NCBI RefSeq assembly: GCF_030816725.1
Contig: NZ_JAUSYG010000001.1
Location: 2,232,001-2,296,000 of the forward strand
Source: Pseudarthrobacter defluvii
GTDB taxonomy: Bacteria; Actinomycetota; Actinomycetes; Actinomycetales; Micrococcaceae
Direction: 5' to 3'
DNA: 64,000 nucleotides
Positions within the stretch are counted from its first letter, which is position 1, and every line of letters starts with the position of its first letter. A program made the position numbers and the translations under genes. The notes below the pieces were generated by a model. That model ran no database searches and was not told the origin of the DNA. It saw only the letters and a program-made list of their open reading frames with translations. Positions 7,872 through 46,465 of this stretch are shown here, one piece after another.

Positions 7872-7885
7872 GAGAGAAGCCCGCC

Positions 7886-27799: not shown

Positions 27800-27884
27800 C
27801 GCGACTCTCACGGGCACTGGGACTGCCCCCAGTTTTGTTGACTCCTTAACCTAGCGAGCTTGTGCTCGTGGAAGGATGTTGACC

Positions 27885-29029: not shown

Positions 29030-29063
29030 GACCCGGAGTCAACAAAAGCCGGGGCAGTCCCCA

Positions 29064-31799: not shown

Positions 31800-31914
31800 G
31801 CCCTCACGCTACGCCGGCGCGTCGTGGGCGGAAAGTCCAGGACGGCGCCTCAGTCTATGCAGTGGTACATGAAGGATCCATGACGGCAGGGCACCCGCGG
31901 GACCAGGACAACCA

Positions 31915-31970
31915 AAGTTCCTCAGTGGGGCCAGAAATAACCGTCATGCTGGGGCCAAAAAAGGTTGACA
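31915..31970. mobile_element. IS21-like terminal fragment
   Basis: Read on the minus strand, the segment begins TGTCAACC, continues TTTTTTGGCCCCAGC, and repeats the GGCCCC element once more (TTTCTGGCCCCACTGAGG). TG-starting ends with internal repeats are typical of IS21-family termini. It sits inside the integrase reading frame, marking the insertion point that truncated that gene. Whether it belongs to the istA/istB copy at 29-31 kb is inference. Confidence 0.55.
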
Positions 31971-32463
31971 TAGTCAGCACGCCCCGACAGGGATTGCGGG
32001 TGATGTAGCCGAGCATCTCGGCGGTATTCATTGAAGCTGATATGAGGCCGTGGATGTTGTGGATCGTTTTGGGCGCCTTGCCCTTGGCCATCATCGACTT
32101 CACCCAATGGGCAATGACGCGGTAGTCGAGCTTGTCCACAGGAACGTGGCCGATGACCGGCCGGATGTGGAATTCAAGCATGGTCTGGTACGTCTTGACT
32201 GTCCCGCTCGACGGGCGGACCAACAGATCGATATGTTCCTGGATGACTTCCGCCACAGTCGGCGGGCGCTTCTCGTTTGTCAGGATGGCGTGCTGCGCGA
32301 TCTCAAACGACTGGCCGTTAGCGTCCAGCAGCCTCTTCAGGGTTTCAGCCTCGACGAGACTAGCGACTGTCAGTCCCTGCTGCTCGCGGCTCTTTGGGTC
32401 CCGCCACAGCACCATGTAGGACGAGGAACCGTCCTTCTTAGTGCGTTTACGGATGCTTGCCAC
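31968..32463 (-). pseudogene. Tyrosine integrase, 3' truncated
   Basis: The N-terminal 165 residues of a phage-type integrase remain: an AP2-like arm-binding start (MASIRKRTKKDGSSSYMVLW), then the core-binding SAM-like domain (TVAEVIQEHIDLLVRPSSG, then TYQTMLEFHIRPVIGHVPVD and MMAKGKAPKTIHNIHGLIS). It breaks off after ITRNPCRGV, just before the catalytic domain with the R-H-R-Y residues, where an IS21-like end begins; the frame runs on nonsensically to 31855. It starts 88 bases from the tRNA 3'-end fragment, the normal place of an integrase beside its attachment site. Confidence 0.82.
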
Positions 32464-32550
32464 ATCAAAAACGGTACGCCGCTGTCAACACTTTGGGCGT
32501 TTTTGTCAACACACAAAGTGGCAAGTGCCGTTTGACCTGCGGAAACACTG

Positions 32551-32579
32551 TGCCCGAGGTGGGACTCGAACTACATTCC
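32551..32579 (-). repeat. tRNA 3'-end fragment, att-like repeat A
   Basis: On the minus strand this reads GTTCGAGTCCCACCTCGGGCA, the T-loop, 3' T-stem and 3' acceptor strand of a tRNA. The matching 5' T-stem and the rest of the tRNA are absent. The 29 bases match 46200-46228 at 27 positions, in the same orientation. Next to an integrase gene, this is most simply an attachment site. Confidence 0.7.
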
Positions 32580-32608
32580 AGCCCCTGCAGACACTAGGAA
32601 TCCGCGGA

Positions 32609-32624
32609 AACATGCGGAATCCGG
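32609..32624. repeat. Shared 16-mer of att-like region A
   Basis: AACATGCGGAATCCGG recurs with one mismatch at 46237-46252, in both cases between the tRNA fragment and the 19-bp dyad. It shows that the two loci share more than a tRNA end. Confidence 0.6.
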
Positions 32625-32661
32625 AGCAGTCCGTCGGCAGTATCATCGGATCCGAAGGGAA

Positions 32662-32684
32662 GAGTGTGGACAATGTCCACACTC
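32662..32684. repeat. Dyad 2: GTGTGGACAaTGTCCACAC
   Basis: The perfect dyad core is 32664-32682 and extends by two more paired bases on each side to 23 bp. It lies 113 bases from the start of tRNA fragment A and 38 bases from the end of the SDR gene at 32722. Confidence 0.75.
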
Positions 32685-32721
32685 CTTTTTCAACTAACAC
32701 CTGAAAGACGGACTGTAGCGC

Positions 32722-33567
32722 TTAGTCAGGAATTGCCTGCATCGCCGGGGTGGGTCCGTCTACGGCAGCGGTGGCGATACTGACACGGGGGTCGAAGGCG
32801 ATGGCTCCGGGTTCGACCGCGATCAGTCCCCCATCCACCGGGATCGTGGCTGCATTAACGTACGAGGCCTGATCGGAGAGCAGCCAGGCAATGACATCGG
32901 CGACCTCGGAGGACGCGGCCGGGCGCCGACTGGGGACGAACGCAGTGGCAAGGCTGTAGGCTTCCTCGCGATCGATGCCGCTGTGTTCAGCAAATTCGCC
33001 CATCTCCATATCCGCCATTTCCGTCCGGGTCCAGCCAGGACATACCGCGTTGGCGCGCACCCCGAGCGGTCCGTAATCGACCGCGATGGATTGCATCAAC
33101 ATGGCAAGGCCGGCCTTCGTGGCGTCGTAGCCCGCGATTCCAGCCGTCGCGGGAAGCGCTGCTGCTGAGGCCACCCCTACGATCGAGCCGCCGGCTTTGA
33201 TCAGGTGCGGCAAGGCGGCACGGACTAGTAGGAAGGGCCCGGTGAGGTTGGTGCTGACCATGGCGTTCCAGTCTTCATCGGACAGCTCGCCGGCACTGCC
33301 GGCGCGGACAATTCCGGCATTCAGTACGAGGCCGTTAATAGCGCCGAATTGCTCCACGGTATCGGCGACCAGCCGTTCCATGTCGGAAGCGGAAGCAACA
33401 TCCGCGACGACAGCGCGGGCGCCGGTCATGTCAGCGACTCGGCTTACAGCTTCTGGGCGGCGTCCGCAGACGACAACTTCCCACCCTTGGCCCCGGAGTG
33501 TTGCGGCAGTGGCGGCTCCTATTCCGGTTCCTCCCCCGGTAATGATTGCAACTGATGTGGGGGTCAT
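32722..33567 (-). CDS. SDR-family oxidoreductase
   Basis: A 281-residue classical short-chain dehydrogenase. TGGGTGIG at 10-17 binds the nucleotide, NAG is at 83-85, and the active site is Ser near 135 with Tyr147 and Lys151 (YDATK). The Asp in VADVASA suits NAD(P). The C-terminus extends past the usual DGG motif (ATIPVDGGL) by about 30 residues. GGGAGATCAGA precedes the ATG at 33567; the frame extends further but without a site. It is the first intact gene inside the bracketed block, next to the permease on the same strand, and probably oxidises a hydroxyl of the imported substrate (inference). Confidence 0.88.
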   Translation of the reverse strand: MTPTSVAIITGGGTGIGAATAATLRGQGWEVVVCGRRPEAVSRVADMTGARAVVADVASASDMERLVADTVEQFGAINGLVLNAGIVRAGSAGELSDEDWNAMVSTNLTGPFLLVRAALPHLIKAGGSIVGVASAAALPATAGIAGYDATKAGLAMLMQSIAVDYGPLGVRANAVCPGWTRTEMADMEMGEFAEHSGIDREEAYSLATAFVPSRRPAASSEVADVIAWLLSDQASYVNAATIPVDGGLIAVEPGAIAFDPRVSIATAAVDGPTPAMQAIPD

Positions 33568-33744
33568 TCTGATCTCCCGGTTCTGTTTCGAAGGTGTGTG
33601 CTTTCGCTTACTCGTGGAGGACCAATCGTCAGACTTCAAAGACGATGCGGGCACACCACTGGGCCACCTCGTAAAGACGTTATCGTCCTGGAGGAAACGA
33701 ATTACCGTGCTGCCGCCCGCGGAGGCGGCAGCACGCTAACCGTT

Positions 33745-35196
33745 TCAGATAACTTCTTTGGCGTAGTCGATGTCGCGCTTGCTCCTGCCGAATACCAGGC
33801 CGCCAAGCATCGCGGCAGGAATGAGGACGAGCAGCCACTTTGCTGCGGCGTTGTCAGGCCCGATGAGGGAGTCGTAGTTCTCGATCGTCACGTAGCCGAT
33901 ATAGGAGAGGATCACGGTGGAGAGGGTAGGTGCGATCTTCGTCGCCCAGATACTGGTGTTGTCCTTGGTCCGGACGAAGAACACGACTATGGATACGGAC
34001 GCCACGATGAGGATGGTGATAAAGGCTGCCGTTGCCAGGGCGCTGAACCAGGCGAACACGACGGTCAGTGGGTCTGCGCCGAGGACGAGGAAGGTAACCA
34101 CGATGATGCCGACGGCCACGCCGTTGGACAGGGCTGCCGTGGCGGGACTCTCCTCCTTGGAAACGGTGGCCAGCCTGGCCGGCAGGACTCCGGCACGGCT
34201 GAGGGCGAAAAGGTAGCGGGCGAACATGTTCATCAGGCCCAGCAGCATGGCCAGGTAACTGGTCACGACGAGGACCTGCATGGCCATGCTCAAGACGCTC
34301 CCTCCGCTTTCGGAGGCGAGGCTGAAGATGAATCCTGCAGGGTCATCCGTTGCCGCCTGTTGGATGTTGTCCACCCCGATGGCCCCTCCGATAACCCAGA
34401 TGGAGAGCGTGTAAAAAATTCCGACAAAGGCGATTACGGCGTAGAGGGCCCGCGGGATGGTCTTGCGGGGGTTGATTGCTTCTTCCGAGAACACCACGGT
34501 TGCTTCGAAGCTGGTGAAGCACAGGAAGGCGAACAGCAATGCAATGCCCAGGCCCGGGCTGAAGAGGTTCTCAGCGGTGAAGCCGGAGAATGTGAAGACT
34601 CCCGGCCCCTTGCTGGCAACGAGCACAATAACCAGAGCAGCAACGACGAGGGTTTCGCCGATGATGAGAACGGCCAAGAGTCGGATGCTCGTGTCGACGC
34701 CCCGCATGGTGAGTGCCGTGGTGATGACGAGCAACGCGACGATCCAGACGAGCGGGGGTACGGAGAGTCCCGTGATGCTCTCCAGCAACTGCCCGGCGAA
34801 GACGCCGAACTGTGACCACAGCCCGACCTGCAGGCTGAGGTACATCAGCAGCGCCAGACCAGCTCCTGCGGTGGCCCAGGGTGTACCGAGGCCTTTGGCG
34901 ATGTAGGCGACAAAGCCGCCGGCGTTGGTGACATGCCTGCTCATGCGTAGGTATCCGACGGCGAAGAGTGCGATGAGCAGTGCGGCGATCGCGTAGATCA
35001 ATGGGGCTGCAGGTCCAACCGCAGCAAAGACCACGGGACCGGTGCCGACGACAGCCGCCATGGGGGCCGCCGCTGCGATGACGAAGAAGGCGATGGCGAA
35101 GACGCCGAGTTTATTTGAGCGGAGATGGCCTGCTTGCGGTTGGACAGGTGTGCTGGACGGCGTCGTTGCCGGCAACTCGCTGACATTATCAATCAT
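33745..35196 (-). CDS. APC-superfamily amino acid/amine permease
   Basis: A 483-residue transporter with about 12 membrane helices. The first helix region LGVFAIAFFVIAAAAPMAAV has the broken-helix glycine/proline pattern of APC transporters, and helix 6 lies in CFTSFEATVVFSEEAINPRK. APC family members import amino acids, amines and amino alcohols by proton symport. The ATG at 35196 has AAAGAGAAAA upstream; the frame extends to 35433 but that part is polar and low in quality. It lies between the SDR and phosphatase genes on the minus strand, so it probably supplies substrate for the catabolic genes. Confidence 0.88.
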   Translation of the reverse strand: MIDNVSELPATTPSSTPVQPQAGHLRSNKLGVFAIAFFVIAAAAPMAAVVGTGPVVFAAVGPAAPLIYAIAALLIALFAVGYLRMSRHVTNAGGFVAYIAKGLGTPWATAGAGLALLMYLSLQVGLWSQFGVFAGQLLESITGLSVPPLVWIVALLVITTALTMRGVDTSIRLLAVLIIGETLVVAALVIVLVASKGPGVFTFSGFTAENLFSPGLGIALLFAFLCFTSFEATVVFSEEAINPRKTIPRALYAVIAFVGIFYTLSIWVIGGAIGVDNIQQAATDDPAGFIFSLASESGGSVLSMAMQVLVVTSYLAMLLGLMNMFARYLFALSRAGVLPARLATVSKEESPATAALSNGVAVGIIVVTFLVLGADPLTVVFAWFSALATAAFITILIVASVSIVVFFVRTKDNTSIWATKIAPTLSTVILSYIGYVTIENYDSLIGPDNAAAKWLLVLIPAAMLGGLVFGRSKRDIDYAKEVI

Positions 35197-35245
35197 GAAT
35201 TTTCTCTTTCGGGCAGATAATGGCCGTAGCCGTGTTCGGGCTTCC

Positions 35246-36043
35246 TCAGACGAGGAGCCGTGCCTTGAGTTTGTTTGTGAGCGCCGGAGTGATGCCGAGT
35301 CCGTCTTCCAAGTAGGAGTGGCGTGATCCCCAGGCGTGCTCCCCGCTGTGCCATGCGGCTTCGAGGTACCCTTGCCGCGCTTCCAGCAAGGGTGTGATGA
35401 CTGTTCGCAGGTGCTTGTCGATGCTGGTGACACTGCCCGCTGAGTCTCTGATGAGGTATTGGTTCTCCGGTAATGAACTCTGAACGTAGTCTTCGAGGAT
35501 CGCGGTTTCAGGTACCCCCAGGATGGTCAAAAGGATGGCTATTGCCCATCCGGTTCTGTCCTTCCCAGCCGAGCAGTGGACGACGACAGGCAGCTCAACT
35601 CGAGCCAATGACTGAAGGAAATTGGCAAATACCGGTGGGTTGCCTGCTATGTCACGGGCATAGAGCCGGTGCATTGCCTCTTCAGCCCGCACTGCCGTAA
35701 GGGCCCTGCCAAGCTCGCTCACGCGACCTTCGCGAACCGCAGACCACAGCCACGCGTCCCTGCTGTCTTTAGCCTGTAGTGGCGTTTGTACAGCCGTTAG
35801 CGCAGGCACGCAACGGTCTTCGGTTTCGGATTCCCGAGGACTTCGCAGATCCATGAAGTGCAGGCGTGCCGCCTCCAGCCTTTGACGATCCGGGGCTGTC
35901 GAGTATCCGAAGTGTCCACTCCGGTACACCAGGCCTTCAGCCACACGGGATCCTCCGTGCGCTGGCAGTCCCCCGAGGCTTCGGAAGTTCCGGACGCCCT
36001 CAAGGGAGTTAGGACCAGCCAAGCCTGGTGTGACCTGTTTCAT
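35246..36043 (-). CDS. Tyrosine-protein phosphatase (Tyr/Ser type, IphP-like)
   Basis: A 265-residue cysteine phosphatase. The signature loop VVHCSAGKDRTGW (about 154-166) is the CX5R motif with the CSAGKDRTG form of IphP/PTP-like lipid or protein phosphatases. Upstream LVYRSGHFGY and FMDLRSPRESE are the usual family blocks. Start at 36043 is uncertain; another ATG lies 36 bases upstream and neither has a strong site. A role in a catabolic block is unexpected; it may remove phosphate from a phosphorylated intermediate made by the kinase at 38184 or act in signalling (inference). Confidence 0.82.
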   Translation of the reverse strand: MKQVTPGLAGPNSLEGVRNFRSLGGLPAHGGSRVAEGLVYRSGHFGYSTAPDRQRLEAARLHFMDLRSPRESETEDRCVPALTAVQTPLQAKDSRDAWLWSAVREGRVSELGRALTAVRAEEAMHRLYARDIAGNPPVFANFLQSLARVELPVVVHCSAGKDRTGWAIAILLTILGVPETAILEDYVQSSLPENQYLIRDSAGSVTSIDKHLRTVITPLLEARQGYLEAAWHSGEHAWGSRHSYLEDGLGITPALTNKLKARLLV

Positions 36044-36082
36044 ACATAAAAGGTAAACACTGAATGTTTCGTACTGCAATAG

Positions 36083-36123
36083 AACAAGTTAAATATTTGT
36101 TGCATGACTAGTTCAGAACTTAG
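36083..36123. promoter_or_regulatory. AT-rich divergent promoter region with palindromes
   Basis: Between the divergent phosphatase and tetR genes the sequence is unusually AT-rich for this window. It holds AACAA/TTGTT arms (36083-36101) and the perfect dyad AGTTCAGAACT (36110-36120). It is the natural operator site for the TetR encoded at 36262; direct evidence is lacking. Confidence 0.45.
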
Positions 36124-36261
36124 GCATAGTGTTCAATGTCTTCAACCGTTCCAGAGCGACCGCGGACCCCTTCTTCAAAGTTTGCACAGACTGTTCACTT
36201 TTAGGATCCGATGTGCAATCATGTGAAGCAGATCACCAGCACCCCACACGAAGGACCAGAA

Positions 36262-36876
36262 ATGAGCGCCTCCAACAAGCCCCTCTCCCTTCGGGAACGA
36301 AACCGTATGAGAACCCGCGGCGACATTCTCGACACCGCAGCTGAGCTGCTGAGTTCGGAGGGGTACGCCTCGACCGCCCTGGAGGTCCTTAGCCAGCAGG
36401 CGGGTATTTCGAGGGGCACCATTTATGCCCACTTCCCCGGCGGAAGGGACGAAATTGTCCGTGAGGTGTATCTGCGGATCGCCGACGCCGTCTACGTACG
36501 GGGCATCAGCCTGCGCGATCCCCTCACGGACCCCGGTGCAAGAATCACGGCGCTGGCCACCGCGCTGGTGGAGGCGACCAAGGAGCCCAAGGGCCGGTTC
36601 TACGGGGTGATGGGACCGGACCTGGTGTCGGCCCTCTCGGACGTCATGGGCTCGACTTCCCGCTCTTTCGAAGAGCTCATTGCGCGGGATCTGAAGGATG
36701 CCAAAGACAGCGGCACCTTGCCTGAGGACGCGCCGACTGAGGCCTTGGCAGCAACGATAACCGGGGCGATCCGCGCTGCCGGGGCTGCTGCAGCTCGTGA
36801 GCCGGCGAACGCCGGGCCAGCGGTCGCGGCTATCCGGTTGCTCATGGACGGACTTCTAGTACGAGCCACTGTCTGA
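36262..36876 (+). CDS. TetR-family transcriptional regulator of the catabolic block
   Basis: A 204-residue regulator. Helix-turn-helix at about 14-58: RMRTRGDILDTAAELLSSEG, then LEVLSQQAGISRGTIYAHFP and RDEIVREVYLRI. The C-terminal ligand domain is Ala-rich. CGAAGGACC lies upstream of the ATG at 36262; the 17 codons further up have no site. It is divergent from the phosphatase/permease/SDR genes and leads into the FAD oxidase gene 37 bases after its stop, so it likely controls both arms in response to the substrate (inference). Confidence 0.85.
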   Translation: MSASNKPLSLRERNRMRTRGDILDTAAELLSSEGYASTALEVLSQQAGISRGTIYAHFPGGRDEIVREVYLRIADAVYVRGISLRDPLTDPGARITALATALVEATKEPKGRFYGVMGPDLVSALSDVMGSTSRSFEELIARDLKDAKDSGTLPEDAPTEALAATITGAIRAAGAAAAREPANAGPAVAAIRLLMDGLLVRATV

Positions 36877-36913
36877 CCCGCCAAGGGTCCGAAAACCACT
36901 AACGGAGGAATTT

Positions 36914-38041
36914 GTGTCAAAACAACACTACGACGTCATTGTCATTGGATTGGGCCCCTGGGGTTCGTCAGCGGCATGGCACTTGGCGGCCCGCGGCAAG
37001 TCCGTGCTCGGCTTGGACAAGTTTGCACCACCGCACATGCACGGTTCGCACGGAGGCGCCACCCGGCTGGCCCGGCAGTCCAGCAGTGCAGGAGCCCAGT
37101 ACACCACCTTCACGAAGCGGACCTTTGAGTTGTGGGACGAGTTGGGCGCGAAAACCGGGACCCGGCTGTTGGAACGTTCGGGAACTGTGTTCGTCGGCGA
37201 ACCCGGATCAATGTGGTTCGACAAAACGGTGGCATCCCTGAACGCGTCCGATTTTGAGTACGATGCCCTTGACGCTTCGACGGCACGGAAGCGGTTCCCT
37301 TGGGCCACGATTAAAGACGACGAAGTCGCCGTATGGGAGCCAAACGGCACCGTTGCCCTCGTTCACCCCGCCATCAAGGCCCTGCAGTCAGAGGCTCGCC
37401 GGCTCGGCGCAACCCTGCGCACGGGAGAAGCGGTTCAAGGCTGGGATGAGAGCGCTTCGGGCATCGTCGTGAGCACCGATCAGGGTAACTATTCAGCCGA
37501 CAAGGTCGTCGTCACCGTGGGTGCCCGCGCCAACCATTTGATGCAACTGGATCTGCCCTACAAGGTGGACCGTCAGGTGCTGGCCAATTTCCGCCAGGAC
37601 GGGCCACCGAAGCCGGCCATCTACTTCGCCAAGCCCCCAGGATCGGACGAGGCACCGGCTTACGGTTGCTCCGAGCCTAACGGTGAATGGAAGTTCTCTG
37701 TCCCCGGGAAGGGAAACTGGATCGACCCCGAGGACCTCAGCCAAGACCTCAGACCCGGAGACCTCGAACGGATCCAGGAAGTCCTCAGCGCCAGGCTCCC
37801 GGACATCGACACCAACCCGGTATCTACCACCGTATGCATGTGGTCTGAGGTGGAGGACGGCCATTGGGTTATCGGTGGACACCCGCAGTCGTCCGATGTC
37901 GTCATCGGCACCGGAGACATGGGCCGAGGGTTCCGCTATGCAGCGGTTGTTGGTGAAATGCTGGCCGATCATGTCGACGGCATTTCCCGCCCCGAAACAA
38001 ACCTGTTCCTGCCTTCACGCTTCGCCACAGCAAAGGCATAA
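36914..38041 (+). CDS. FAD-dependent amine oxidase, sarcosine oxidase / N-methyltryptophan oxidase type
   Basis: A 375-residue flavoprotein of the DAO family. YDVIVIGLGPWGSSAAWHLA (6-25) binds the ADP part of FAD, and GSHGGATRLARQSS is the second family block (H-G-x-T-R). A cysteine in TTVCMWSEVEDGHW, near residue 310, sits where monomeric sarcosine oxidases attach FAD covalently. IGTGDMGRGFRYAAVVGEML closes the fold. ACGGAGGAATTT precedes the GTG at 36914. Such enzymes oxidise N-methyl amines to the free amine, formaldehyde and hydrogen peroxide; the formaldehyde dehydrogenase downstream fits this. Confidence 0.85.
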   Translation: MSKQHYDVIVIGLGPWGSSAAWHLAARGKSVLGLDKFAPPHMHGSHGGATRLARQSSSAGAQYTTFTKRTFELWDELGAKTGTRLLERSGTVFVGEPGSMWFDKTVASLNASDFEYDALDASTARKRFPWATIKDDEVAVWEPNGTVALVHPAIKALQSEARRLGATLRTGEAVQGWDESASGIVVSTDQGNYSADKVVVTVGARANHLMQLDLPYKVDRQVLANFRQDGPPKPAIYFAKPPGSDEAPAYGCSEPNGEWKFSVPGKGNWIDPEDLSQDLRPGDLERIQEVLSARLPDIDTNPVSTTVCMWSEVEDGHWVIGGHPQSSDVVIGTGDMGRGFRYAAVVGEMLADHVDGISRPETNLFLPSRFATAKA

Positions 38042-38183
38042 ACCGTGACACCGGCAGACGTCCTGACCGCACCGTTACAGAGCTTGTGGGAGCTCGTGAA
38101 ACAGTGCGAACAGTGCAGCCAGGACAACCTCCGACCCCAACACAGTGCACCTGCATTCGAACATCGAAGGACATCCAATCCTA

Positions 38184-39137
38184 ATGACCATCGTCCCTGA
38201 TACCGAAATCACCAGCATTGAGGCGGTGCTTTCGACGAACCCAGACTGGGTTGGCTGTCACGTCACCGCACATTCCCTCTCCGGCGGCCAGGCCCATAAG
38301 AACTACCTCGTCGAGGACGGTTCCCGTCGTTGCGTCGTCAAGCTCTGGAACAACTACTGGGAAACGGTAGGAGTTCTGCCCGCCGCCCACGTGGTTCTGG
38401 AAAACACAAGAATTGCCGCCGAGATCGGCGTAGGCGCGCCCGTCATAACAGTCTCAAACGAACCCTTGGCGCTGGCTCTCGACTTTGTTCCGGGAGGCCA
38501 CCCGAGGCTAAGCGACGACGATGACTCCGTCACCCGACTCGTCCCTGCCCTTCACCGGCTTCATCACTCCGGCCGCCGGTTCCTCAACGACATCAACCCC
38601 TTCAACCTGGCCCGACAAAGGATGGAGGCCGCCAGAAGACAAGGTATCGAGCTGCCGCCCGGAACGTCAGCCATCCAAGCCCTGATGGACCGTCTGGAGA
38701 CCGTCCTGGCCCTGGATCCTTCCCAGTTTGTTCCCTGCCATCTGGACATTTGGGATGCAAACATCATCAAGGACACCTCCTCGATGACCTACAACATTAT
38801 CGACTGGGACCTCGCCGGCAACTCGGACCCGTGCTACGAGATCGGATTTATTGCAGCGCAAAACGGATTCGGGGAAGAGAAGGCACAGGCACTCTTCGAA
38901 GCCTACTTCGGCAACACTGACCCAGTAAAAATGGCCCGCGCCAGGCTCTTCATGGCGGTGGCTCATTGGTCCAACAGTGGACTGTGGATCACCGCAATGG
39001 GCAACGCTGCGCCCAACGACGACGCCGACTACGCAGGGGAACTGCGTACCTGTTGGGAAGGGTTGATCTCTGAAATAACAGCCCCTGACTTCCCCGACTT
39101 AATAAAGGCAGCCGCAAAACCGGCAGCTCTCGTCTAA
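38184..39137 (+). CDS. Choline/ethanolamine kinase-like phosphotransferase (APH fold)
   Basis: A 317-residue kinase-fold protein. [14 protein letters not shown] with VVKLW (about 31-55) forms the N-lobe. [11 protein letters not shown] (185-195) is the catalytic loop and [13 protein letters not shown] (204-216) the metal-binding loop, both close to those of choline and ethanolamine kinases (IDWE/D-YAG). GAAGGACATCC precedes the ATG at 38184. Beside a class III PLP enzyme and an aldehyde dehydrogenase it suggests the route known for 1-amino-2-propanol: phosphorylate an amino alcohol, then eliminate phosphate and ammonia to give an aldehyde. Substrate inferred, not shown. Confidence 0.8.
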
Positions 39138-39234
39138 CAAAACCGCGGCGCGCGCGTTAGCGCCTAACCAAGGCTGGCTCTACGCCAGTCAATGCAACTA
39201 CGCCCTTAAACAGGAAAAGATTTCGGAGCAACAG

Positions 39235-39633
39235 ATGAACGACATCACGCAGCAAGAAGCACACAAGATAGTTGAAGCGGCACGAGAGGCAGCCCTGTCC
39301 TCGGAAACCCTGATGAACATTGCCGTTGTAGACGCCGGCGGAAACCTCAAGGCCTTCACCCGCATGGACGGTGCGTGGCTCGGCAGTATCGACATCGCCA
39401 TCAAAAAGGCACGCACGGCCCGCTACTTCGACATGCCCACCGGAGACATCGGCTCCATCTCGCAGCCCGGCGGACCGCTGTTCAACATCGAAGTATCCAA
39501 TGGCGGCCTGATCACCTTTCCCGGAGGCATCCCACTGACTAAAGACGGGGTCACCGTCGGCGCCATCGGTGTCAGCGGCAGCACCGTTGAAAACGACCAC
39601 CTGGTCGCTACTGCCGGCGCCCAAGCCCTCTAA
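39235..39633 (+). CDS. GlcG/HbpS-like heme-binding-family protein
   Basis: A 132-residue protein of the GlcG/HbpS (DUF336) family: [32 protein letters not shown] and the C-terminal [19 protein letters not shown] are the conserved blocks. Family members bind heme or cobalamin-like cofactors or act as accessory proteins in glycolate, diol and amine catabolism; biochemical roles remain poorly known. GGAG lies eleven bases before the ATG. It sits between the kinase and PLP enzyme, co-directional with both. Confidence 0.82.
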
Positions 39634-39728
39634 CCGGCTGCCGGGGCCGGCCAGCGACCGTCCGACCCCGGCAACACCCACCGACTCATGTTCCGGACTC
39701 AAATCCGCACCAACGGCCAAGGACAGCA

Positions 39729-41069
39729 ATGACACTCGAAACAGCCACAGAACCGGCACCCGACGCACTCCTTCAGGAAAGCCTCATTGACCGCCGCGAA
39801 CGCACCATCGGGCGCCACTCCCCGCTGTTCTATGCCACTCCCCTGGAAATCGTGGCCGGCGAAGGCGTGTGGGTCCACGACGCCACCGGCAAGACCTACC
39901 TGGATGTCTACAACAACGTCCCCCACGTCGGACACTCCAACCCTGTCGTCCGCGAAGCAATCACAGCCCAGCTGCAGACCGTCAACCTCCACACGAGGTA
40001 CCTCAACTCGCGCGTCGTTGAGTACGCCGAAAAGCTGCTGGCGCTCTTCGATTCCCCGCTGGAGCGGGTATTCTTCACCAACAGCGGATCCGAAGCAAAC
40101 GAGCTCGCCCTACGAATCGCACGGCAACACACCGGCAACACCGGCATCCTTATCTCGGACCACAGCTACCACGGCAACACAACCACTCTGGCCGAACTGA
40201 CCACCGGCCTCCAGGTCAAAGAACCCCTCGGCGCCCACGTACGCCCCCTTCGTATTCCGGACGCAGCAGGGTTGACACAGGCTAAAGGAAAGCGCCTCCT
40301 CCAGGAAGCGCTGCGCGACGTCGACGCAGCCATCTCCTCGCTCCAGGCCGAAGGCTGCGGAGTCTCAGCCATCCTGTATGACCCGTTGTTCTCAACCGAA
40401 GGACTCCTACAGACCCCCGACGGCTACATAGAGGCAGTCACCGAGCGGGTCCGTGCCGCCGGCGGGCTGGTCATAGCGGACGAGGTCCAATCGGGCTTCG
40501 GACGGACCGGCAACCATATGTGGGGCCACCAGGCTTTCGGCACCACCCCTGATCTGGTGACGCTTGGCAAGCCGATGGGCAACGGCCACCCGGTAGGTGG
40601 TGTCATCACCACGCAAGCACTGATGGAGGAATTCGGGGAAAACAACACCTACTTCAACACATTTGCCGGAAACCCCGTCTCGTCAGCTGCCGGTCTTGCT
40701 GTGCTGCATGTCATGGAAGAGAACGGGCTTATTGAAAATGCGCACCAACTCGGCAAGTTCATCGCTGACGCACTCGCAGCCGTCGCTAAAGGCAACCCCA
40801 GGATCAAGAGCGTACGCGGCCGGGGCCTGTTCTTTGGTCTGGAGATCGTCAATCCCGAGGATGCGACACCGGACCCTGCCGCCACCAAGGCACTCACGGA
40901 AGAGATGCGTTCCCGCGGCGTTCTCATCGGAAAGATCGGTCGCCACGAAAACGTCCTCAAAATGAGGCCACCGCTCGTCTTCGAACTCGAACACGCCCAA
41001 CACATGATCGAGCAACTCCGTCTGGCACTGGAAACACTCAACGACCCAGCTGATCAAAACCAATGGTGA
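39729..41069 (+). CDS. Class III PLP-dependent enzyme (aminotransferase / phospho-lyase type)
   Basis: A 446-residue fold-type I PLP enzyme. FFTNSGSEANELALRIAR (about 114-131) binds the cofactor phosphate, IADEVQSGFGRTG (249-261) carries the Asp that contacts the pyridine ring, and Lys281 in TLGKPMGNGHP forms the Schiff base. The short-loop architecture and NNVPHVGHSNP start resemble ethanolamine-phosphate and 5-phosphohydroxylysine phospho-lyases as well as omega-transaminases. With a kinase before it and an aldehyde dehydrogenase after it, phospho-lyase action is the attractive reading; transamination remains possible. Confidence 0.85.
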   Translation: MTLETATEPAPDALLQESLIDRRERTIGRHSPLFYATPLEIVAGEGVWVHDATGKTYLDVYNNVPHVGHSNPVVREAITAQLQTVNLHTRYLNSRVVEYAEKLLALFDSPLERVFFTNSGSEANELALRIARQHTGNTGILISDHSYHGNTTTLAELTTGLQVKEPLGAHVRPLRIPDAAGLTQAKGKRLLQEALRDVDAAISSLQAEGCGVSAILYDPLFSTEGLLQTPDGYIEAVTERVRAAGGLVIADEVQSGFGRTGNHMWGHQAFGTTPDLVTLGKPMGNGHPVGGVITTQALMEEFGENNTYFNTFAGNPVSSAAGLAVLHVMEENGLIENAHQLGKFIADALAAVAKGNPRIKSVRGRGLFFGLEIVNPEDATPDPAATKALTEEMRSRGVLIGKIGRHENVLKMRPPLVFELEHAQHMIEQLRLALETLNDPADQNQW

Positions 41070-41120
41070 CCATCCCGGATTCACCCGAACAACAACCAAC
41101 CACTCAATGAGGAGAATGCC

Positions 41121-42518
41121 ATGAACACCACGCCTGTCCTTACCCAGGACGCCGTCTCCACCCGAACCATCTTCAACCCCGCCACCGGTGAACCCGTCGG
41201 AGAAGCCCCGGTGCATACGGTCGCGGACCTGCAGCACGCCATCGACGTGGCAGTCGCCGCCCAGCCCGGCTGGGCCACACTCGGTCACGAGGCACGGTCC
41301 GCCGCACTGCTGAAGGCCGCCGACGCCGTCGAAGCGCGCGCGGAAGAACTCGCCCAGCTGCTCTCCCGCGAGCAGGGCAAACCGCTGAACGGCCCCAACG
41401 CCCGCTTCGAAGTCGGCGCCTGCGCCGCCTGGCTCCGCGCCGCCGCCGGGACACCGCTCGAAGCGGAAACCCTGGTCGATGACGGTGAAACCCGTGCGGA
41501 GCTGCACTACCGGCCCATCGGCGTCGTCGGGGCCATCGGGCCATGGAACTGGCCCATGATGATCACCGTCTGGCAGGTCGCCCCCGCACTGAGAATGGGC
41601 AACGCCGTAGTGGTCAAACCCTCCGAATACACCCCGCTCAGCGTGCTTGCCCTCGTTGAAACCATCAACGAAGCCCTGCCCGAAGGGCTCCTCACCGTGG
41701 TCTCCGGCGGCCGCGACGTAGGCGAAGCCCTCGCCTCGCACCCCGCCATCGGGAAGATCATGTTCACCGGCTCCACCGCAACGGGCAAGGCGATCATCAA
41801 ATCCTCCGCGGACACCATCAAGCGGCTCACCCTGGAGCTCGGCGGTAACGACGCCGGCATCGTCCTGCCCGACGCCGACCCGAGGGCCATCGCCGAAGGC
41901 CTGTTCTGGGGCGCCTTCATCAACACCGGCCAAACCTGCGCTGCCCTGAAACGCCTCTACGTCCACGACGACATCTACGACGCCGTCTGCGAGGAGCTCA
42001 CCAATGTGGCCAAGGCCATGCCGATGGGCAACGGCCTGGACGAAAACAACGTCCTGGGACCGCTGCAGAACAAGGCACAGTACGAGATCGTCGCGAACCT
42101 CGTGGAGGCCGCCAAAGCCGCCGGGGCCCGCGTCCTCCTCGGCGGAAACCCGGACACTGACCAGCCCGGCTACTTCTACCCCACCACCCTCGTGGCCGAC
42201 ATCGACAACGACAACCCACTCGTCGCCGAAGAACAATTCGGCCCCGCCCTGCCCATCATCCGCTACAGCACCATCGACGAAGCAATCCAGAAAGCAAACG
42301 CCCTCGACGTCGGCCTCGGCGCCTCCGTCTGGTCCTCAGACCCGGCAACAGCCCGCAACGTCGCCGCCCGAATCCAAGCAGGTACCGTCTGGATCAACAA
42401 ACACGGCGCCGTCGACCCTCGCATCCCCTTCGGCGGGGCAAAACAATCCGGCTACGGCCTCGAATTCGGCGTCGAAGGACTCAAACACCTCGGCGTCCCC
42501 CAGGTCATCAACGGCTAA
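41121..42518 (+). CDS. Aldehyde dehydrogenase family protein
   Basis: A 465-residue NAD(P)-dependent aldehyde dehydrogenase. The oxyanion Asn is Asn143 in PWNWP, the general base Glu239 is in LTLELGG, and the catalytic Cys273 in NTGQTCAALKR. VVVKPSEYTPLS and FTGSTATGK are cofactor-binding blocks. TGAGGAGAATGCC gives a good start. The gene is AT-poor and codon-biased like its neighbours. In context it would oxidise the aldehyde released by the PLP enzyme to a carboxylic acid. A 15-bp hairpin follows the stop. Confidence 0.9.
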   Translation: MNTTPVLTQDAVSTRTIFNPATGEPVGEAPVHTVADLQHAIDVAVAAQPGWATLGHEARSAALLKAADAVEARAEELAQLLSREQGKPLNGPNARFEVGACAAWLRAAAGTPLEAETLVDDGETRAELHYRPIGVVGAIGPWNWPMMITVWQVAPALRMGNAVVVKPSEYTPLSVLALVETINEALPEGLLTVVSGGRDVGEALASHPAIGKIMFTGSTATGKAIIKSSADTIKRLTLELGGNDAGIVLPDADPRAIAEGLFWGAFINTGQTCAALKRLYVHDDIYDAVCEELTNVAKAMPMGNGLDENNVLGPLQNKAQYEIVANLVEAAKAAGARVLLGGNPDTDQPGYFYPTTLVADIDNDNPLVAEEQFGPALPIIRYSTIDEAIQKANALDVGLGASVWSSDPATARNVAARIQAGTVWINKHGAVDPRIPFGGAKQSGYGLEFGVEGLKHLGVPQVING

Positions 42519-42531
42519 AACACCACTGACT

Positions 42532-42564
42532 GGTGGGGGCACCGCCACAGGCGGCGCCCCCACC
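42532..42564. terminator. Hairpin after the aldehyde dehydrogenase gene
   Basis: Fifteen-base arms, GGTGGGGGCaCCGCC against GGCGGcGCCCCCACC, pair with one mismatch and a short loop, 14 bases past the stop. No T-tract follows. It may end the first part of the operon or stabilise the upstream message. Confidence 0.5.
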
Positions 42565-42638
42565 GCGGAATGCCAAGGCTGAGGGCCGCTTCCTGGATAC
42601 AGCGACCGGTAGTGCCAATCGACATCGCGGAGGATTAA

Positions 42639-42863
42639 TTGAACCGCCACACCCGTGCAGTTGAGGTAGAGGACTGGTCCATGCTCCGGGCCGGCGACAG
42701 GGTTGCCGTCTCAGAAGACCTCTTCTACCAGGACGCGCTCCAAGTAGAAGAAACAGCAGCAGACATCGGAGTGATCTGGGTCCGCAGAATCTCCAGTGGT
42801 GACCGCCAGCTTCTCAGCGTCGGGACCCACAGAATTTGGCATCTCGGCACTAAAAACATCTGA
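42639..42863 (+). CDS. Small hypothetical protein with TTG start (74 aa)
   Basis: The TTG at 42639 is preceded by a strong GCGGAGGATTAA, which is why I accept the rare start. The product is polar and probably beta-rich (GDRVAVSEDLFYQD, ADIGVIWVRRISSGD, LLSVGTHRIWHL), like a small SH3-type barrel. No family recognised. It lies between the aldehyde dehydrogenase and formaldehyde dehydrogenase genes, in the same direction, and may be an accessory or regulatory protein of the C1 branch. Confidence 0.6.
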   Translation: MNRHTRAVEVEDWSMLRAGDRVAVSEDLFYQDALQVEETAADIGVIWVRRISSGDRQLLSVGTHRIWHLGTKNI

Positions 42864-42908
42864 TCCGCCCCGGTTCAACTGCAAGAACGCAAACGAAGGT
42901 ACGCATTC

Positions 42909-44009
42909 ATGGTTCATAAAGTCCAAGCAGTAGTGGTTAAGGAAAAGAACGCCCCGGTGTCGCTGGAGACCATCCTGGTGCCGGATCCGGGGCCGGGGGA
43001 AGCGCTGGTGGACATCCTGACCTGCGGTGTCTGCCACGCGGATCTGCACTATAAGCAGGGCGGCATCGGCGATGATTTCCCGTACCTGCTGGGCCATGAG
43101 GCCACCGGCGTTGTCTCTGCAGTTGGTCCGGACGTCACCTCGGTGGGGCCCGGTGACCGGGTCATCCTGAACTGGCGGGCGGTGTGCGGCGAGTGCCGGG
43201 CGTGCGCCAAGGGCCAGCCGCAGTACTGCTTCAATACCCACAACGCAACCCAGAAGATGACCCTTGAGGACGGCACGGTCCTGTCCCCGGCCCTGGGCAT
43301 TGGCGCCTTCGCTGAAAAGACCCTGGTGGCCGCGGGGCGGTGCACCAAGGTGGACCCCGACGTAGACGCGGCGGCCGTGGGGCTGCTGGGCTGCGGCATC
43401 ATGGCCGGCATCGGTGCCGCGATCAACACCGGCGAGGTCAAGCGCGGCGAGTCCGTGGCAGTGATTGGCTGCGGCGGCGTGGGCATCGCCGCGGTCGCCG
43501 GCGCGAAGTTGGCGGGTGCGACGACGATCATCGCCGTTGACATCGACGACAACAAGATCGGGATGACCAAGTCCCTCGGCGCCACCCATGGCGTGAACTC
43601 CAAGCAGGAGGACGCGGTGGAGGCCATCCGGGCCCTTACCGGAGGCAACGGCGCGGACGTGATGATTGACGCCGTCGGCCGTCCTGAAACCTACAAGCAG
43701 GCGTTCTACGCCCGCGACCTTGCCGGCCGCGTGGTCCTGGTCGGTGTGCCGACGCCGGAGATGACGCTGGAACTGCCGCTGCTGGATGTCTTTGGCCGCG
43801 GCGGGTCGCTGAAGTCCTCCTGGTACGGCGACTGCCTGCCCTCCCGGGACTTCTCCATGCTGGTGTCCCACTACAAGCAGGGCAACCTGGACCTGGACGC
43901 GTTCGTGTCCGAGCGCATCACCATCGACCAGGTGGAGGAGGCCTTCGGCAAAATGCACGAGGGCAAGGTCCTGCGTTCCGTTGTTGAAGTCAGCCCAGTG
44001 CAGATCTGA
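42909..44009 (+). CDS. mscR: S-(hydroxymethyl)mycothiol dehydrogenase
   Basis: A 366-residue zinc-dependent MDR dehydrogenase. Catalytic zinc ligands lie in CGVCHAD (Cys39) and GHEATG; the structural zinc site has Cys93, Cys96, Cys99 and Cys107 ([15 protein letters not shown]). The nucleotide fold shows [11 protein letters not shown]. The overall pattern is that of the mycothiol-dependent formaldehyde dehydrogenase of actinobacteria, which oxidises S-hydroxymethylmycothiol to S-formylmycothiol. The next gene, a metallo-hydrolase, starts on its stop codon; this pairing is the standard one. It would detoxify formaldehyde from the FAD oxidase. Confidence 0.88.
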
Positions 44010-44629
44010 TGGCCGTCACCATTGAGAACCTGGTCACCTCGGGCACGTTCTCGCTCGACGGCGGCACCTGGGATGTGGACAACAACGTCTGGATCGTGGG
44101 CAACGACGAGGAATGCGTCATCATCGACGCTCCCCACGACGCCGCCGCGATCATCAACCAGGTCCGCAGCCGCAAGGTCAAGGCCATCCTGCTGACCCAC
44201 GCGCACAACGACCACATCGGTGCCGCCCGGGAGGTTGCAGACGCGCTGGGAGCACCGGTCCTCCTGAACGAGGAGGACCTGGTGCTGTGGGAGCAGGTCT
44301 ACCCTGACGCCAAGCCGGACCGCTATCACTCGGACGGGGACGTGTTCGAGGTGGGCGGGGCAACGCTGAAGGCGATCCGCACGCCCGGCCACTCCCCGGG
44401 GTCCACCTGCTTCTACCTCGAAAGCGAAGGAACGGTATTCACCGGGGACACGCTGTTCAATGGCGGCCCGGGTGCCACGGGCCGGTCCTACAGTGACTAT
44501 CCCACCATCCTGACCTCCATCCGTGGACGGCTTTTGACGCTTCCCTCGGAAACGGTGGTCCGCACCGGCCACGGCGACAACACCACCATCGCCGCGGAGC
44601 AGGAAACGCTGGCGAAAGTCCCGCAGTAG
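44009..44629 (+). CDS. MBL-fold hydrolase, probable S-formylmycothiol hydrolase
   Basis: A 206-residue metallo-beta-lactamase-fold protein: THAHNDHIG (63-71) is the HxHxDH metal motif, TPGHSPGS holds the next ligand His, FTGDTLF the bridging Asp, and TGHGDNT the last His. The family includes glyoxalase II-like thioester hydrolases. Its start shares one base with the stop of the formaldehyde dehydrogenase gene, and this gene pair is conserved in actinobacteria, so hydrolysis of formyl-mycothiol to formate is the likely reaction (inference from context). Confidence 0.87.
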   Translation: MAVTIENLVTSGTFSLDGGTWDVDNNVWIVGNDEECVIIDAPHDAAAIINQVRSRKVKAILLTHAHNDHIGAAREVADALGAPVLLNEEDLVLWEQVYPDAKPDRYHSDGDVFEVGGATLKAIRTPGHSPGSTCFYLESEGTVFTGDTLFNGGPGATGRSYSDYPTILTSIRGRLLTLPSETVVRTGHGDNTTIAAEQETLAKVPQ

Positions 44630-44716
44630 CGGCAGGAACAACGCAATAAGCCAGCGAAAAGCGAGCCGTGAACATCCGGCGCGCTTTTCAAAGACACCGC
44701 GAGGGCGACCCACGCG

Positions 44717-45496
44717 TCAGGAGCTGTACCCGCCGAGGTCTTCGCCGAACGACAGTGCCATTGTTCCGCTGCGCTTTAGGGCGTCTACCACCACGGCCGG
44801 CTCGATGGCATGGGCCCGGGTGGCCCACTGGGACTCTTTCAGGTACGTGGAAAGTGCGGCGCGGCTGGGAAAGACGGCATCGACAACAAGCTGGAAGTCA
44901 CCGGCGAGTACCGCGGCGTACCGGACTGACGGGGAAGGAAGCATTTCCGCTTCCACGCGGTCCAGTTCCGGAAACGGCACTTTGACCCACAGCAGCACCT
45001 CTACCGGCAATCCGAGCAGCGCAGGCTCGAAGACTGCGCGGATGAACACTGTCCCCTCGCGCCGCATCCGCTCCACCCTGCGCTGGGTCGTCTGCACCGA
45101 GAGTCCCGTGATGCGCGCCAGTTCCTCGTAACTGGCGCGGCCATCGCGTTCCAGTGCCCTGAGAAGTTGCCGGTCCTCTTTTCCCAGTTGCTCCACGTGT
45201 TCCAGGGCGGTCGGTGCCTTCGAGTAGCGGGTTCCGCCCATCACCTCAATTTCTTCCGGCGTCAGGACGCCGGGATTCCACTGGTGCATCGTTCTGGGAT
45301 AGCTGAGGACGGGATACGTGGCGGCCGATCTAACGCCCGGGATGCTCCCTATGTCCCGGATCAACAGCTCTGCAAACTTAGAGGCAGGGCTGGAAAGCTC
45401 CGCCGCGCAGTCCGCGGACCCGGTGAGGATGTAGGTGTACAAGGTTTCCGGGCGCCTCGCGACGGCGGCAGCGGCATGAACCTCTTCAACATCCAT
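44717..45496 (-). CDS. Lrp/AsnC-family regulator, probably missing its first DNA-binding domain
   Basis: From the ATG at 45496 (AGAAGG upstream) the product has about 259 residues in the order RAM-like domain (about 5-85), AsnC helix-turn-helix (DRQLLRALERDGRASYEELA, then TGLSVQTTQRRVERM) and a second RAM domain (PVEVLLWVKVPFPELDRVE). Actinobacterial homologues of this type are usually HTH-RAM-HTH-RAM, so the first HTH is missing and the gene appears cut at about 45497, where unrelated sequence starts. A few more codons are open up to 45559. It may still bind DNA through its remaining HTH. Confidence 0.7.
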   Translation of the reverse strand: MDVEEVHAAAAVARRPETLYTYILTGSADCAAELSSPASKFAELLIRDIGSIPGVRSAATYPVLSYPRTMHQWNPGVLTPEEIEVMGGTRYSKAPTALEHVEQLGKEDRQLLRALERDGRASYEELARITGLSVQTTQRRVERMRREGTVFIRAVFEPALLGLPVEVLLWVKVPFPELDRVEAEMLPSPSVRYAAVLAGDFQLVVDAVFPSRAALSTYLKESQWATRAHAIEPAVVVDALKRSGTMALSFGEDLGGYSS

Positions 45497-45818
45497 GCAG
45501 CCTTCTGGGGCCTGGCGATTGGCTACGGGGTGTCCCGCCTGCTGGAGCAGAGGGACCATTTAGGTCTCTAAGTCGGGCAACCTACAGCGTCGTCCGCGTA
45601 CAGGCCGCCCGGTCGCGCGGGTTGCGCGGTACATCCAACAACGAACAGGCATCCTGCCGCAGGCATCGAGGTCAACCAGGTGGGGCACACCCCAACCTGA
45701 CGTCGAGCGGTGGTGTGTAGGGTCCGGCTGGGCTCGGTTTGTTTCTTTTCTGACGCCGCCGAAATGAATTCATATCCCTGAACCGGACAGTGGACACGAC
45801 CCCTACGGCCACTCCAAG

Positions 45819-45873
45819 AAGCAGACGTAGCTGTGGACACAGTCCACACCTCCCTTGGCCGGACAAATACACG
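45819..45873. repeat. Dyad 3 with the same flanks as dyad 1
   Basis: CTGTGGACAcAGTCCACAC (45831-45849) differs from the perfect dyad at two positions. Its flanks AAGCAGACGTA and TTGGCCGGACAAA match those of dyad 1 at 27745-27799, in the same orientation, so the two are copies of one larger block. Confidence 0.7.
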
Positions 45874-46170
45874 ACCACGTCCTCCGGCGCAACCAAGAGC
45901 GGCCTTCCGAGACCGTTCCGCACCAGAGAGGTCTTCGTCATGTCGTTCCCGCACCGCAAAGCCATGAACAGGTGTTGGCCACCCCAGACCAACCCGACAG
46001 AACCGGAACGAGGAACCACCTGCCACCCATAAACAGCAGGCGGTGAGCCCACCAGCCAGGGCACTGAGCCCGCCACCCACACACCTGAATAGGCCACCGC
46101 GGCGGCCAGGCCACGGCCGCGAACCACCGTCAGAGTCGACGGGCCAAAGCTTTGTAGACACGCTTAAAGC

Positions 46171-46192
46171 AAAAACCCCCTCTGACGAGGGG
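46171..46192 (-). terminator. Rho-independent terminator beyond tRNA fragment B
   Basis: On the minus strand CCCCTC-loop-GAGGGG is followed by TTTTT. It stands eight bases beyond the tRNA 3' end, just where a tRNA transcript would be terminated. This suggests that locus B keeps the original chromosomal flank of the target tRNA gene. Confidence 0.7.
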
Positions 46193-46199
46193 CTCTGCG

Positions 46200-46228
46200 T
46201 GCCCAAGGTGGGACTCGAACTGCATTCC
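46200..46228 (-). repeat. tRNA 3'-end fragment, att-like repeat B
   Basis: On the minus strand it reads GTTCGAGTCCCACCTTGGGCA, the T-loop to acceptor end of a tRNA, followed by a terminator. It matches repeat A (32551-32579) at 27 of 29 positions and in the same orientation, 13.65 kb away. No 5' part of a tRNA is present. An acceptor 5' strand would be GCCCAAG, or GCCCGAG for copy A; the isotype cannot be fixed. Confidence 0.7.
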
Positions 46229-46236
46229 CGGCCGGC

Positions 46237-46252
46237 AACATGCGTAATCCGG
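46237..46252. repeat. Shared 16-mer of att-like region B
   Basis: AACATGCGTAATCCGG, one mismatch from 32609-32624, lies between the tRNA fragment and dyad 4. Confidence 0.6.
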
Positions 46253-46291
46253 TCGAAACCGAAGGCTACACGAGGCATTCTGAGACGGCAC

Positions 46292-46310
46292 GCGTGGACA
46301 TTGTCTACAC
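46292..46310. repeat. Dyad 4: GCGTGGACAtTGTCTACAC
   Basis: It differs from the perfect dyad at two positions and lies 92 bases from the start of tRNA fragment B, closely matching the layout at locus A (113 bases). Confidence 0.65.
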
Positions 46311-46465
46311 GCATACTACCCTCTATCCGATCAGCTATTCCGGTCCTCCTCGAGGGCACCGCCGCCCCTCGACAGCAGAAAATCTAGGTCATTACTTCCA
46401 CGCCGGCATCCCCCTTCAACTTGTTGAGGGATTAGAGTCGCTCCTGACTATCGAAGGAGCAGCGC

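Follow-up and report, generated by a model that had tools for sequence, protein, structure and literature searches.

Islands that pile up one after the other at the 3' end of a gene are known from several bacteria. The accretion of integrative and conjugative elements (ICEs), integrative and mobilizable elements (IMEs) and cis-mobilizable elements (CIMEs) has been reviewed (PMC5704250), composite excision was demonstrated for the islands GI1-GI3 of Bordetella petrii (PMC2717098), and single as well as joint excision was observed for actinomycete ICEs (AICEs) of Frankia (PMC3218068). From the available text of these papers, tandem island accretion at tRNA ends, CIMEs and tandems of catabolic islands are already known. 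The locus described here belongs to Pseudarthrobacter defluvii (assembly GCF_030816725.1, the source genome, hereafter G000). The window, i.e., a stretch of 64,000 nucleotides (contig NZ_JAUSYG010000001.1, positions 2,232,001 to 2,296,000), contains a block of catabolic genes between two directly repeated tRNA 3' ends. We consider it very probable that this block is part of a tandem accretion at the 3' end of tRNA-Leu(CAA), whose islands are mostly non-autonomous and probably moved in trans by ICE integrases.

The comparison with the described systems, within the available text of each source, leads to the following points: (i) att repeats, an element at the target gene and att-bounded neighbours without integrase are common to the systems of PMC5704250 and to this locus, which differs by integrase-less units with their own conserved P' end, by arm variants matching those of integrases and by arrays found throughout the genus; (ii) adjacent catabolic islands, repeats of the tRNA end (18 bp) and a nearby inverted repeat are also found in B. 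petrii at tRNA-Gly, but its islands are Clc-like with their own integrases, the tRNA and the integrase are different, and excision was measured there whereas the present data are sequences only (PMC2717098); (iii) tandem insertion in tRNA genes of actinobacteria is shared with the AICEs of Frankia and Streptomyces, which bear integrases and occur in pairs, in a paper whose main text never mentions «Arthrobacter» (PMC3218068); (iv) predicted arm sites that vary with N-terminal substitutions of the integrase (positions 17 and 19) are described for Cluster K mycobacteriophages, whereas here four two-base variants are found in 51 integrases, with repeated switches, and also in integrase-less islands (PMC3203893). 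Among the matches listed in the open-licence literature on mobile elements, none describes a tRNA-Leu(CAA) array. As far as this literature shows, the genus-wide array, the conserved integrase-less end and the arm variants shared with integrases are new.

The direct repeat (window 32550-32584 and 46199-46233, on one strand, spacing 13,649, 89% identity over 35 nt) corresponds to the T-arm and the acceptor 3' side of a tRNA on the minus strand. The original prediction had described a 29-base tRNA end repeated in the same orientation, which is confirmed: 27 bases out of 29 are identical, against 21/29 at best in 200 random first-order Markov sequences of 64 kb. The repeats are real and chance is excluded as their source. 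ARAGORN found no tRNA in the window. Searching the genome for the 22-nt core GTGCCCGAGGTGGGACTCGAAC with at most two mismatches gives seven sites, all on one strand: (i) the 3' end of an intact tRNA-Leu(CAA) gene (2453526-2453608 by ARAGORN), 175 kb to the right of the repeat at 46199; (ii) five extra copies at 2192652, 2195052, 2212678, 2264550 (window 32550) and 2278199 (window 46199); (iii) a second tRNA-Leu (TAA) at 3014920, with two mismatches. Since the core matches the end of the intact tRNA-Leu(CAA), the fragments in the window are copies of its 3' end. All five extra cores are on the strand and on the 3' side of this gene, the array spanning 261 kb. Direct repeats of a tRNA 3' end are thus found with the intact gene at one end, i.e., the structure of a tRNA-targeted array. 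The original prediction had counted two repeats, the three copies outside the window and the intact tRNA being overlooked. The 16-mer and the 19-bp dyad that it reported next to both repeats are indeed present twice, though not identical: the 16-mers AACATGCGGAATCCGG and AACATGCGTAATCCGG agree at 15/16 positions, and the dyad GTGTGGACAATGTCCACAC (32664-32682) has only a degenerate counterpart, GTGGACATTGTCTACAC (46294-46310), which is 21 nt closer to its core.

The same structure was searched for in 206 genomes of the genus, one per species. A strict unit (core, 80-110 nt, dyad of any variant) is found in 150 of them (347 units, up to 8 per genome), and the reversed pattern gives 0 units in the same 206 genomes. 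It must be noted that the strict pattern catches only 2 of the 5 extra units of the source genome. All units are on one strand in 73 of the 94 genomes with at least two units, many-contig drafts being among the rest. Strand and side were counted in 12 of 25 genomes with a core hit, chosen for having the tRNA and the cores on a shared main contig, two hits inside another tRNA-Leu (full-length match) being excluded. The extra cores are on the tRNA's strand and 3' side in 34 cases out of 34 (11 genomes; the twelfth, G017, has none). Thirty of them fall between the tRNA and rpsA; the four others, in G012, are uncountable because rpsA is rearranged there. In five further genomes with extra cores on the contig of the tRNA, 14/16 fit (6/6 in four genomes, 8/10 in G022), and the remaining genomes of the 25 have copies on other contigs or none. 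The two off-array cores of G022 (C1:3838724 on the minus strand and 4998216 on the plus strand), one of which is on the opposite strand, possibly reflect a secondary site or a rearrangement. Repeats scattered without linkage to inserted DNA, an outcome that the original prediction had named as contrary to it, are thus not what the 34 copies show. Outside the genus, the core with at most one mismatch was found in 0/14 genomes of the order, and the att unit had no match in plasmids.

The tRNA and rpsA are 17.8 kb apart in G002, against 356.5 kb in G000. Of 20 genomes compared, 18 keep the usual order, and in these the interval measures 18 to 764 kb. The backbone of G002 matches G000 from rpsA to 2105904 and then ends, save one 62-nt piece; G002 thus has a near-empty site (this genome is a draft, with three other cores, one exact and two with one mismatch, on two other contigs). 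By steps of 20 kb, G+C falls from 0.67 near rpsA to 0.59-0.65 between 2155 kb and the tRNA, and is again 0.67 past the tRNA. Homologous blocks (at least 1 kb, at least 85%) were compared among the array regions of nine genomes: of their 44 ends, 8 fall on a core, against a mean of 0.59 and a maximum of 4 in 300 random draws, these hits stemming from about four elements. A small unit lies between two cores in G000 (2.4 kb) and in G011 (2.0 kb); the 1.7 kb common to both reach the distal core.

Read in the tRNA sense, the upstream side of the core is a P arm of about 110 nt with a dyad at its end, and the downstream side is one of two types of P' end. The int-type end has two arm sites, mostly 37 and 58 nt past the core, followed by the integrase gene. 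In the type-2 end, a terminator hairpin is found together with a single arm site, which is 36-37 nt past the core and thus placed like the first site of the int-type end; conserved non-coding DNA (about 250 nt) separates them from a second dyad, located about 370 nt from where the core starts. The exact dyad TGTGGACNNNGTCCACA occurs at five sites in the genome: four are at most 370 nt from a core copy, and the fifth (window 27758) is in a piece of type-2 end displaced by insertion sequence (IS) elements. The type-2 ends were picked by their having a dyad (20 units from 17 genomes, 19 of them not near-identical); once aligned, they have a specific layout in common over about 400 nt. A type-2 end is found at the intact tRNA in 7 of 30 fetched tRNA loci. 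In the window, the core at 32550 is followed by an int-type end, in which homology breaks off inside the integrase gene, and the truncated integrase announced beside one repeat is thereby borne out. The core at 46199 is followed by a type-2 end; therefore the terminator, predicted at the place where a tRNA transcript would end and indeed present, belongs to a conserved element end and is not a leftover of the host tRNA.

The stretch of about 250 nt at window 45850-46100, conserved in the integrase-less ends of 17 genomes, was also considered in itself. It is not coding, no frame being open in all 20 ends, nor is it clearly structured as an RNA (weak consensus folding, z of -2.5 and -3.4). The folding z of the whole type-2 unit is -5.7, a value that includes the tRNA end, the terminator and the dyad. 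Rfam matches over 45700-46400 are at chance level only.

Next to the intact tRNA, an integrase of 376 aa with a tyrosine-recombinase catalytic domain is encoded at 2452309-2453439. The tRNA-side segment (2385-2453 kb) also contains a TrwC relaxase, a TraG-type coupling protein (TraG/TraD) and TrbL, the three located at 2385-2398 kb, and by this gene content it appears to be an ICE. Relatives of the integrase (E<=1e-60) are found in 95 of the 206 genomes, and 77 of the 150 genomes with units lack one. Eight genomes were searched for tyrosine recombinases (E<=1e-5). Three of them, G001, G006 and G010, with four, two and two extra cores respectively, have only two tyrosine recombinases each, outside the arrays, which we read as XerC/XerD; no PF07508 recombinase was found in these three genomes. 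The six-unit array of G011 contains no tyrosine recombinase, others being found elsewhere in that genome, and the catabolic block of the window contains none. From such arrays without recombinase, it would follow that the units were inserted by an enzyme not now encoded in them. When the integrase was sought in the order, E<=1e-110 was reached in 4 of 297 genomes, all four within the genus. In phages, the 2062 records with a related integrase are all below 60% identity, the best among the matches listed being 41%. The best match of the integrase is 3nkh (1.3e-16) and IntI4 is distant (7.1e-7). An integron was rejected on the grounds that the sites are tRNA 3' ends with arms, that Rfam gives no match beyond chance over 45700-46400 and that IntI4 is a distant match. 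On the ICE side, adjacent tyrosine recombinases of 838 and 397 aa are found together with a large serine recombinase (L027:1943-5649 and 7358-8794); the adjacent recombinases are presumably RIT-like.

The arm sites, GTGTNNACA, vary by two bases (NN). The integrases were taken from 61 loci: the 30 best matches, 20 hand-picked from the same list and 11 from tRNA loci. All but three (L212, L213 and L042) yielded an integrase next to an exact core, and 51 of these 58 integrases are different. NN is TG in 22, GT in 9, GG in 8 and GC in 12; L161 and L211, having none of the four variants at the second site, were labelled by the first. The most informative columns on NN are residues 6, 5 and 19, and the top seven are all in residues 5-28: integrases with TG sites have Arg5-Lys6 and Leu/Val19 (one Cys), those with GG have Arg/Lys at both 5 and 6 together with Cys19, those with GT have Ala/Ser5-Thr6 and Arg19, and those with GC have Trp5-Glu6 and Arg19. 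A tree built from residue 71 onwards requires 13 changes of variant, the minimum being 3; the N-terminus and the arm sites thus switch together. Among type-2 ends, 17 of 19 near-core arm sites carry an integrase-type variant (about 6e-6 given base composition, kinship being ignored and the best of 12 start positions taken; G006 is omitted, with more than one mismatch in its arm site). This agreement is in our opinion the best evidence that integrase-less islands may be substrates of these integrases.

The following mechanism is proposed. The repeats at 32550 and 46199 would be internal attachment sites of an island array. The attP of a newcomer would recombine with the tRNA core, older islands being pushed away from the tRNA; the putative ICE, with its relaxase, coupling protein and integrase, would now hold the tRNA side. 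Islands without integrase, the catabolic one included, would probably be mobilised in trans by this integrase family, which we assume to recognise the arm sites through residues 5, 6 and 19. Several points weigh against this mechanism: (i) 22 genomes have an integrase match without a strict unit, and the pattern misses 3 of the 5 home units; (ii) L173, TG with Cys19, breaks the residue-19 pattern; (iii) the arm sites are at most about 90 bp from the integrase start, and linkage alone could hold variant and N-terminus together; (iv) of the two near-core arm sites outside the four variants, one (CT) is that of the unit at 46199 itself; (v) the P-arm dyads ignore the near-core variant (GG 16/30, GC 8, TG 3, mixed 3, GT 0) and the outer dyads of type-2 ends read GG in 16/20, i.e., dyads are mostly GG whatever the near-core variant, which a two-base address leaves unexplained.

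The integrase-less units could also be decayed ICEs that lost their own integrase, the array having been shuffled and trimmed by homologous recombination between att regions; mobilisation in trans would then play no part. Such arrays are usually explained by decay to CIMEs and subsequent accretion (in the available text of PMC5704250), and in the window the right end of the block is truncated and its left surroundings were rebuilt by IS elements and an int-type end. On the contrary, decay accounts poorly for the specific layout that type-2 ends keep, for their presence at the intact tRNA, for the agreement of their arm sites with the four integrase variants and for the arrays of G001, G006 and G010, although an ICE come and gone would also fit the latter. 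We thus regard decay as a possible explanation, but one that we would rather doubt.

As an extension of the mobilisation in trans, the locus may be compared to an integron without integron integrase: a fixed loading site at the tRNA, integrase-less cassettes of catabolic and other genes in one orientation, and a two-base address (TG/GT/GG/GC) that would choose the mobilising ICE integrase, integrases switching address by exchanging their first 30 or so residues together with the arm sites. This comparison is offered tentatively, as a conjecture that we do not expect to hold in full.

The original prediction was that of a single 13.65-kb island (32550-46199) integrated as a unit. Its att repeats derived from a tRNA 3' end, the involvement of an integrase and the inserted nature of the catabolic DNA were all correct, but not the bracketing of one island by the two repeats. 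The stretch containing the oxidase and kinase genes has some match in 37 of the 206 genomes and a match over its length in 8 (source genome included), at 97% in G001, G026 and G035. In these three relatives the catabolic segment is collinear from the core on. Homology to the window begins at 32502 (G001), 32550 (G026) and 32549 (G035), i.e., at the core in G026 and G035, with 48 nt of extra P' sequence in G001; it ends at 45475, 45479 and 45310, respectively, 0.7-0.9 kb before the right repeat, and the elements then diverge. Beyond the block end, about 3.7 kb more are common to G001 and G026 (esterase and transporter genes by eye) before they differ, and G035 differs from both immediately. From the left core, the next core is at 20.6 kb in G001, 23.7 kb in G026 and 49.3 kb in G035. 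The AsnC/Lrp regulator has 332 aa in G001 and G026, and its start is lost in the window.

The left junction being kept in three relatives and the right one not, the left repeat is a true end of the element, on its P-arm side, and the right one belongs to the end of a different element. No integrase or transfer genes are among the annotated genes of the block. The «13.65-kb island» thus appears to combine two elements: the P-arm part of a catabolic island, truncated at about 45479, and next to it the P' end of a second element whose body would have been lost, the simplest cause being a recombination event or a deletion within the array. The suspicion, already expressed in the original prediction, of recombination between element copies was well placed. 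A single island is supported by the shared orientation of the repeats and by the presence of GG dyads at 32664 (P arm) and 45832 (P' end); the junctions, the distances to the next cores and the truncated regulator make it very unlikely. Catabolic genes without repeats, also named as contrary to the prediction, were partly observed: G174 and G141 have homologues at 80-82%, and the surrounding 35 and 30 kb that were retrieved contain no core, even with up to 4 mismatches; therefore the gene set exists outside att-bounded DNA too. G164 and G088 each have a core on the opposite strand, at about 7 and 1 kb, respectively, from the homologous genes.

A composite transposon carrying the block, the tRNA pieces being incidental, is hardly credible: IS3 and IS21 DNA does lie left of 32550, but in the three relatives the left junction consists of a core and a type-2 end, where nothing matches these IS elements, no IS copies flank both block ends, and the other IS3 copies (301 kb self-compared) are not at the right block edge. 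These two copies, at 2182693 and 2409581, are 99.92% identical to the one in the window, so the element was probably active recently. The window piece 27736-27817 appears to have been cut from the core at 32550 by insertions, IS3 and IS21 DNA being in between; 27586-27817 matches DNA of G026 that is contiguous with the counterpart of this core.

Table 1. Coordinates of the features of the window (numbered from its first nucleotide; seven-digit positions are those of the contig).
Feature	Position	Strand	Evidence or remark
Outer piece of type-2 P' end, dyad 27758-27774	27736-27817		90.6% to 2212289-2212373
IS3-type copy (27818-29065) and IS21-type pieces (Mu-type C-terminal domain, IstB)	27818-30999	+	
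Truncated integrase open reading frame	31855-32463	-	Residues 2-163 of the tRNA-adjacent 376-aa integrase at 98%; homology ends near 31977
int-type P' end: core, two arm sites, 5' part of tyrosine integrase	31977-32571	-	96.5% over 595 bp to 2452953-2453547
Two arm-type sites, GTGTTGACA on the minus strand	32504-32512 and 32483-32491		Sequence reading
att core copy	32550-32571	-	Last 22 nt of tRNA-Leu(CAA), exact
P arm of catabolic element, ending in inverted-repeat dyad 32664-32682	32572-32690		Unit pattern
Catabolic segment, collinear in G001/G026/G035, from core	32572-45479		92.7, 95.6, 94.5% identity
Short-chain dehydrogenase	32722-33654	-	Pfam adh_short_C2 4e-54
Amino acid/amine permease, APC family, start uncertain	33745-35433	-	Pfam AA_permease_2 5.7e-29
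Tyrosine-phosphatase-like protein	35246-36079	-	Pfam Y_phosphatase3 4.8e-51
TetR regulator	36211-36876	+	Pfam TetR_N 1.3e-11
N-methyl amine/amino acid oxidase	36914-38041	+	NCBIfam N-methyl-L-tryptophan oxidase, 273.3 bits vs. cut-off 257
APH-type small-molecule kinase	38145-39137	+	Pfam APH 2.6e-16
HbpS-like protein	39235-39633	+	Pfam 7.5e-39
Class-III PLP enzyme, likely amine-phosphate phospho-lyase	39729-41069	+	Best PDB match 5g4i phospholyase, E 1.6e-188
Aldehyde dehydrogenase	41121-42518	+	Pfam Aldedh 4.1e-146
S-(hydroxymethyl)mycothiol dehydrogenase	42909-44009	+	TIGR03451, 651.1 bits vs. cut-off 512.9
MBL-fold hydrolase	44009-44629	+	Best match GloB model, below its cut-off
AsnC/Lrp regulator, 5'-truncated at about 45479	44717-45559	-	Compared with G001, G026
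Junction DNA: end of shared catabolic segment vs. end of another element	45480-45780		Homology stops at 45310-45479
Integrase-less type-2 P' end	45781-46198	-	Aligned with 19 other type-2 ends; 73.7% to G035
Parts of the type-2 end: dyad; arm site (GTGTCTACA); terminator hairpin	45832-45848; 46153-46161; 46172-46193		
att core copy	46199-46220	-	One mismatch
P arm of next element, degenerate dyad 46294-46310	46221-46312		

The catabolic gene set was predicted to be complete, which is mostly the case, the regulator at the right edge being truncated on its 5' side. The class-III pyridoxal phosphate (PLP) enzyme is a likely amine-phosphate phospho-lyase: its closest solved relative is the phospholyase 5g4i/5g4j, over residues 1-441, with the difference that the neighbouring genes here would point to an N-methylated amino alcohol. 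The block thus probably encodes the demethylation of such a compound, formaldehyde being detoxified through mycothiol; the amino alcohol would then be phosphorylated, the phospho-lyase would remove amine and phosphate, and the aldehyde would be oxidised. The N-methylated amino alcohol as substrate is a guess. A search of genome contigs with the oxidase gives one relative, in Sinomonas atrocyanea (75%), and plasmids, some of the Arthrobacter group among them, match the block in parts only, at most 12% of its length.

Other neighbours of the att units were also observed. A doc-like gene region has two copies, window 12189-12740 and L005 near G000:2195208-2195576 (90.8% over 533 bp); one copy is near the P arm of an att unit, where a segment of about 1 kb also abuts the core in G001 and G012. 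Directly to the right of the 46199 unit, window 46466-48356 contains a 149-aa gene and a DUF4192 gene, and DUF4192-like DNA is also found near an att unit in G088. At L026 (near G000:2423330-2424387) and L029 (near 2180620-2181264), units of about 153 and 162 nt, respectively, are repeated in tandem, the copies being 96-99% identical.

The array accounts for a large strain-variable part of the chromosome in these soil bacteria, and for the stacking of degradation genes. If the arm-site address does select the integrase, gene flow through the array would be predictable from two bases and three residues, and the recognition of arm sites by integrases would be open to testing with natural variants.

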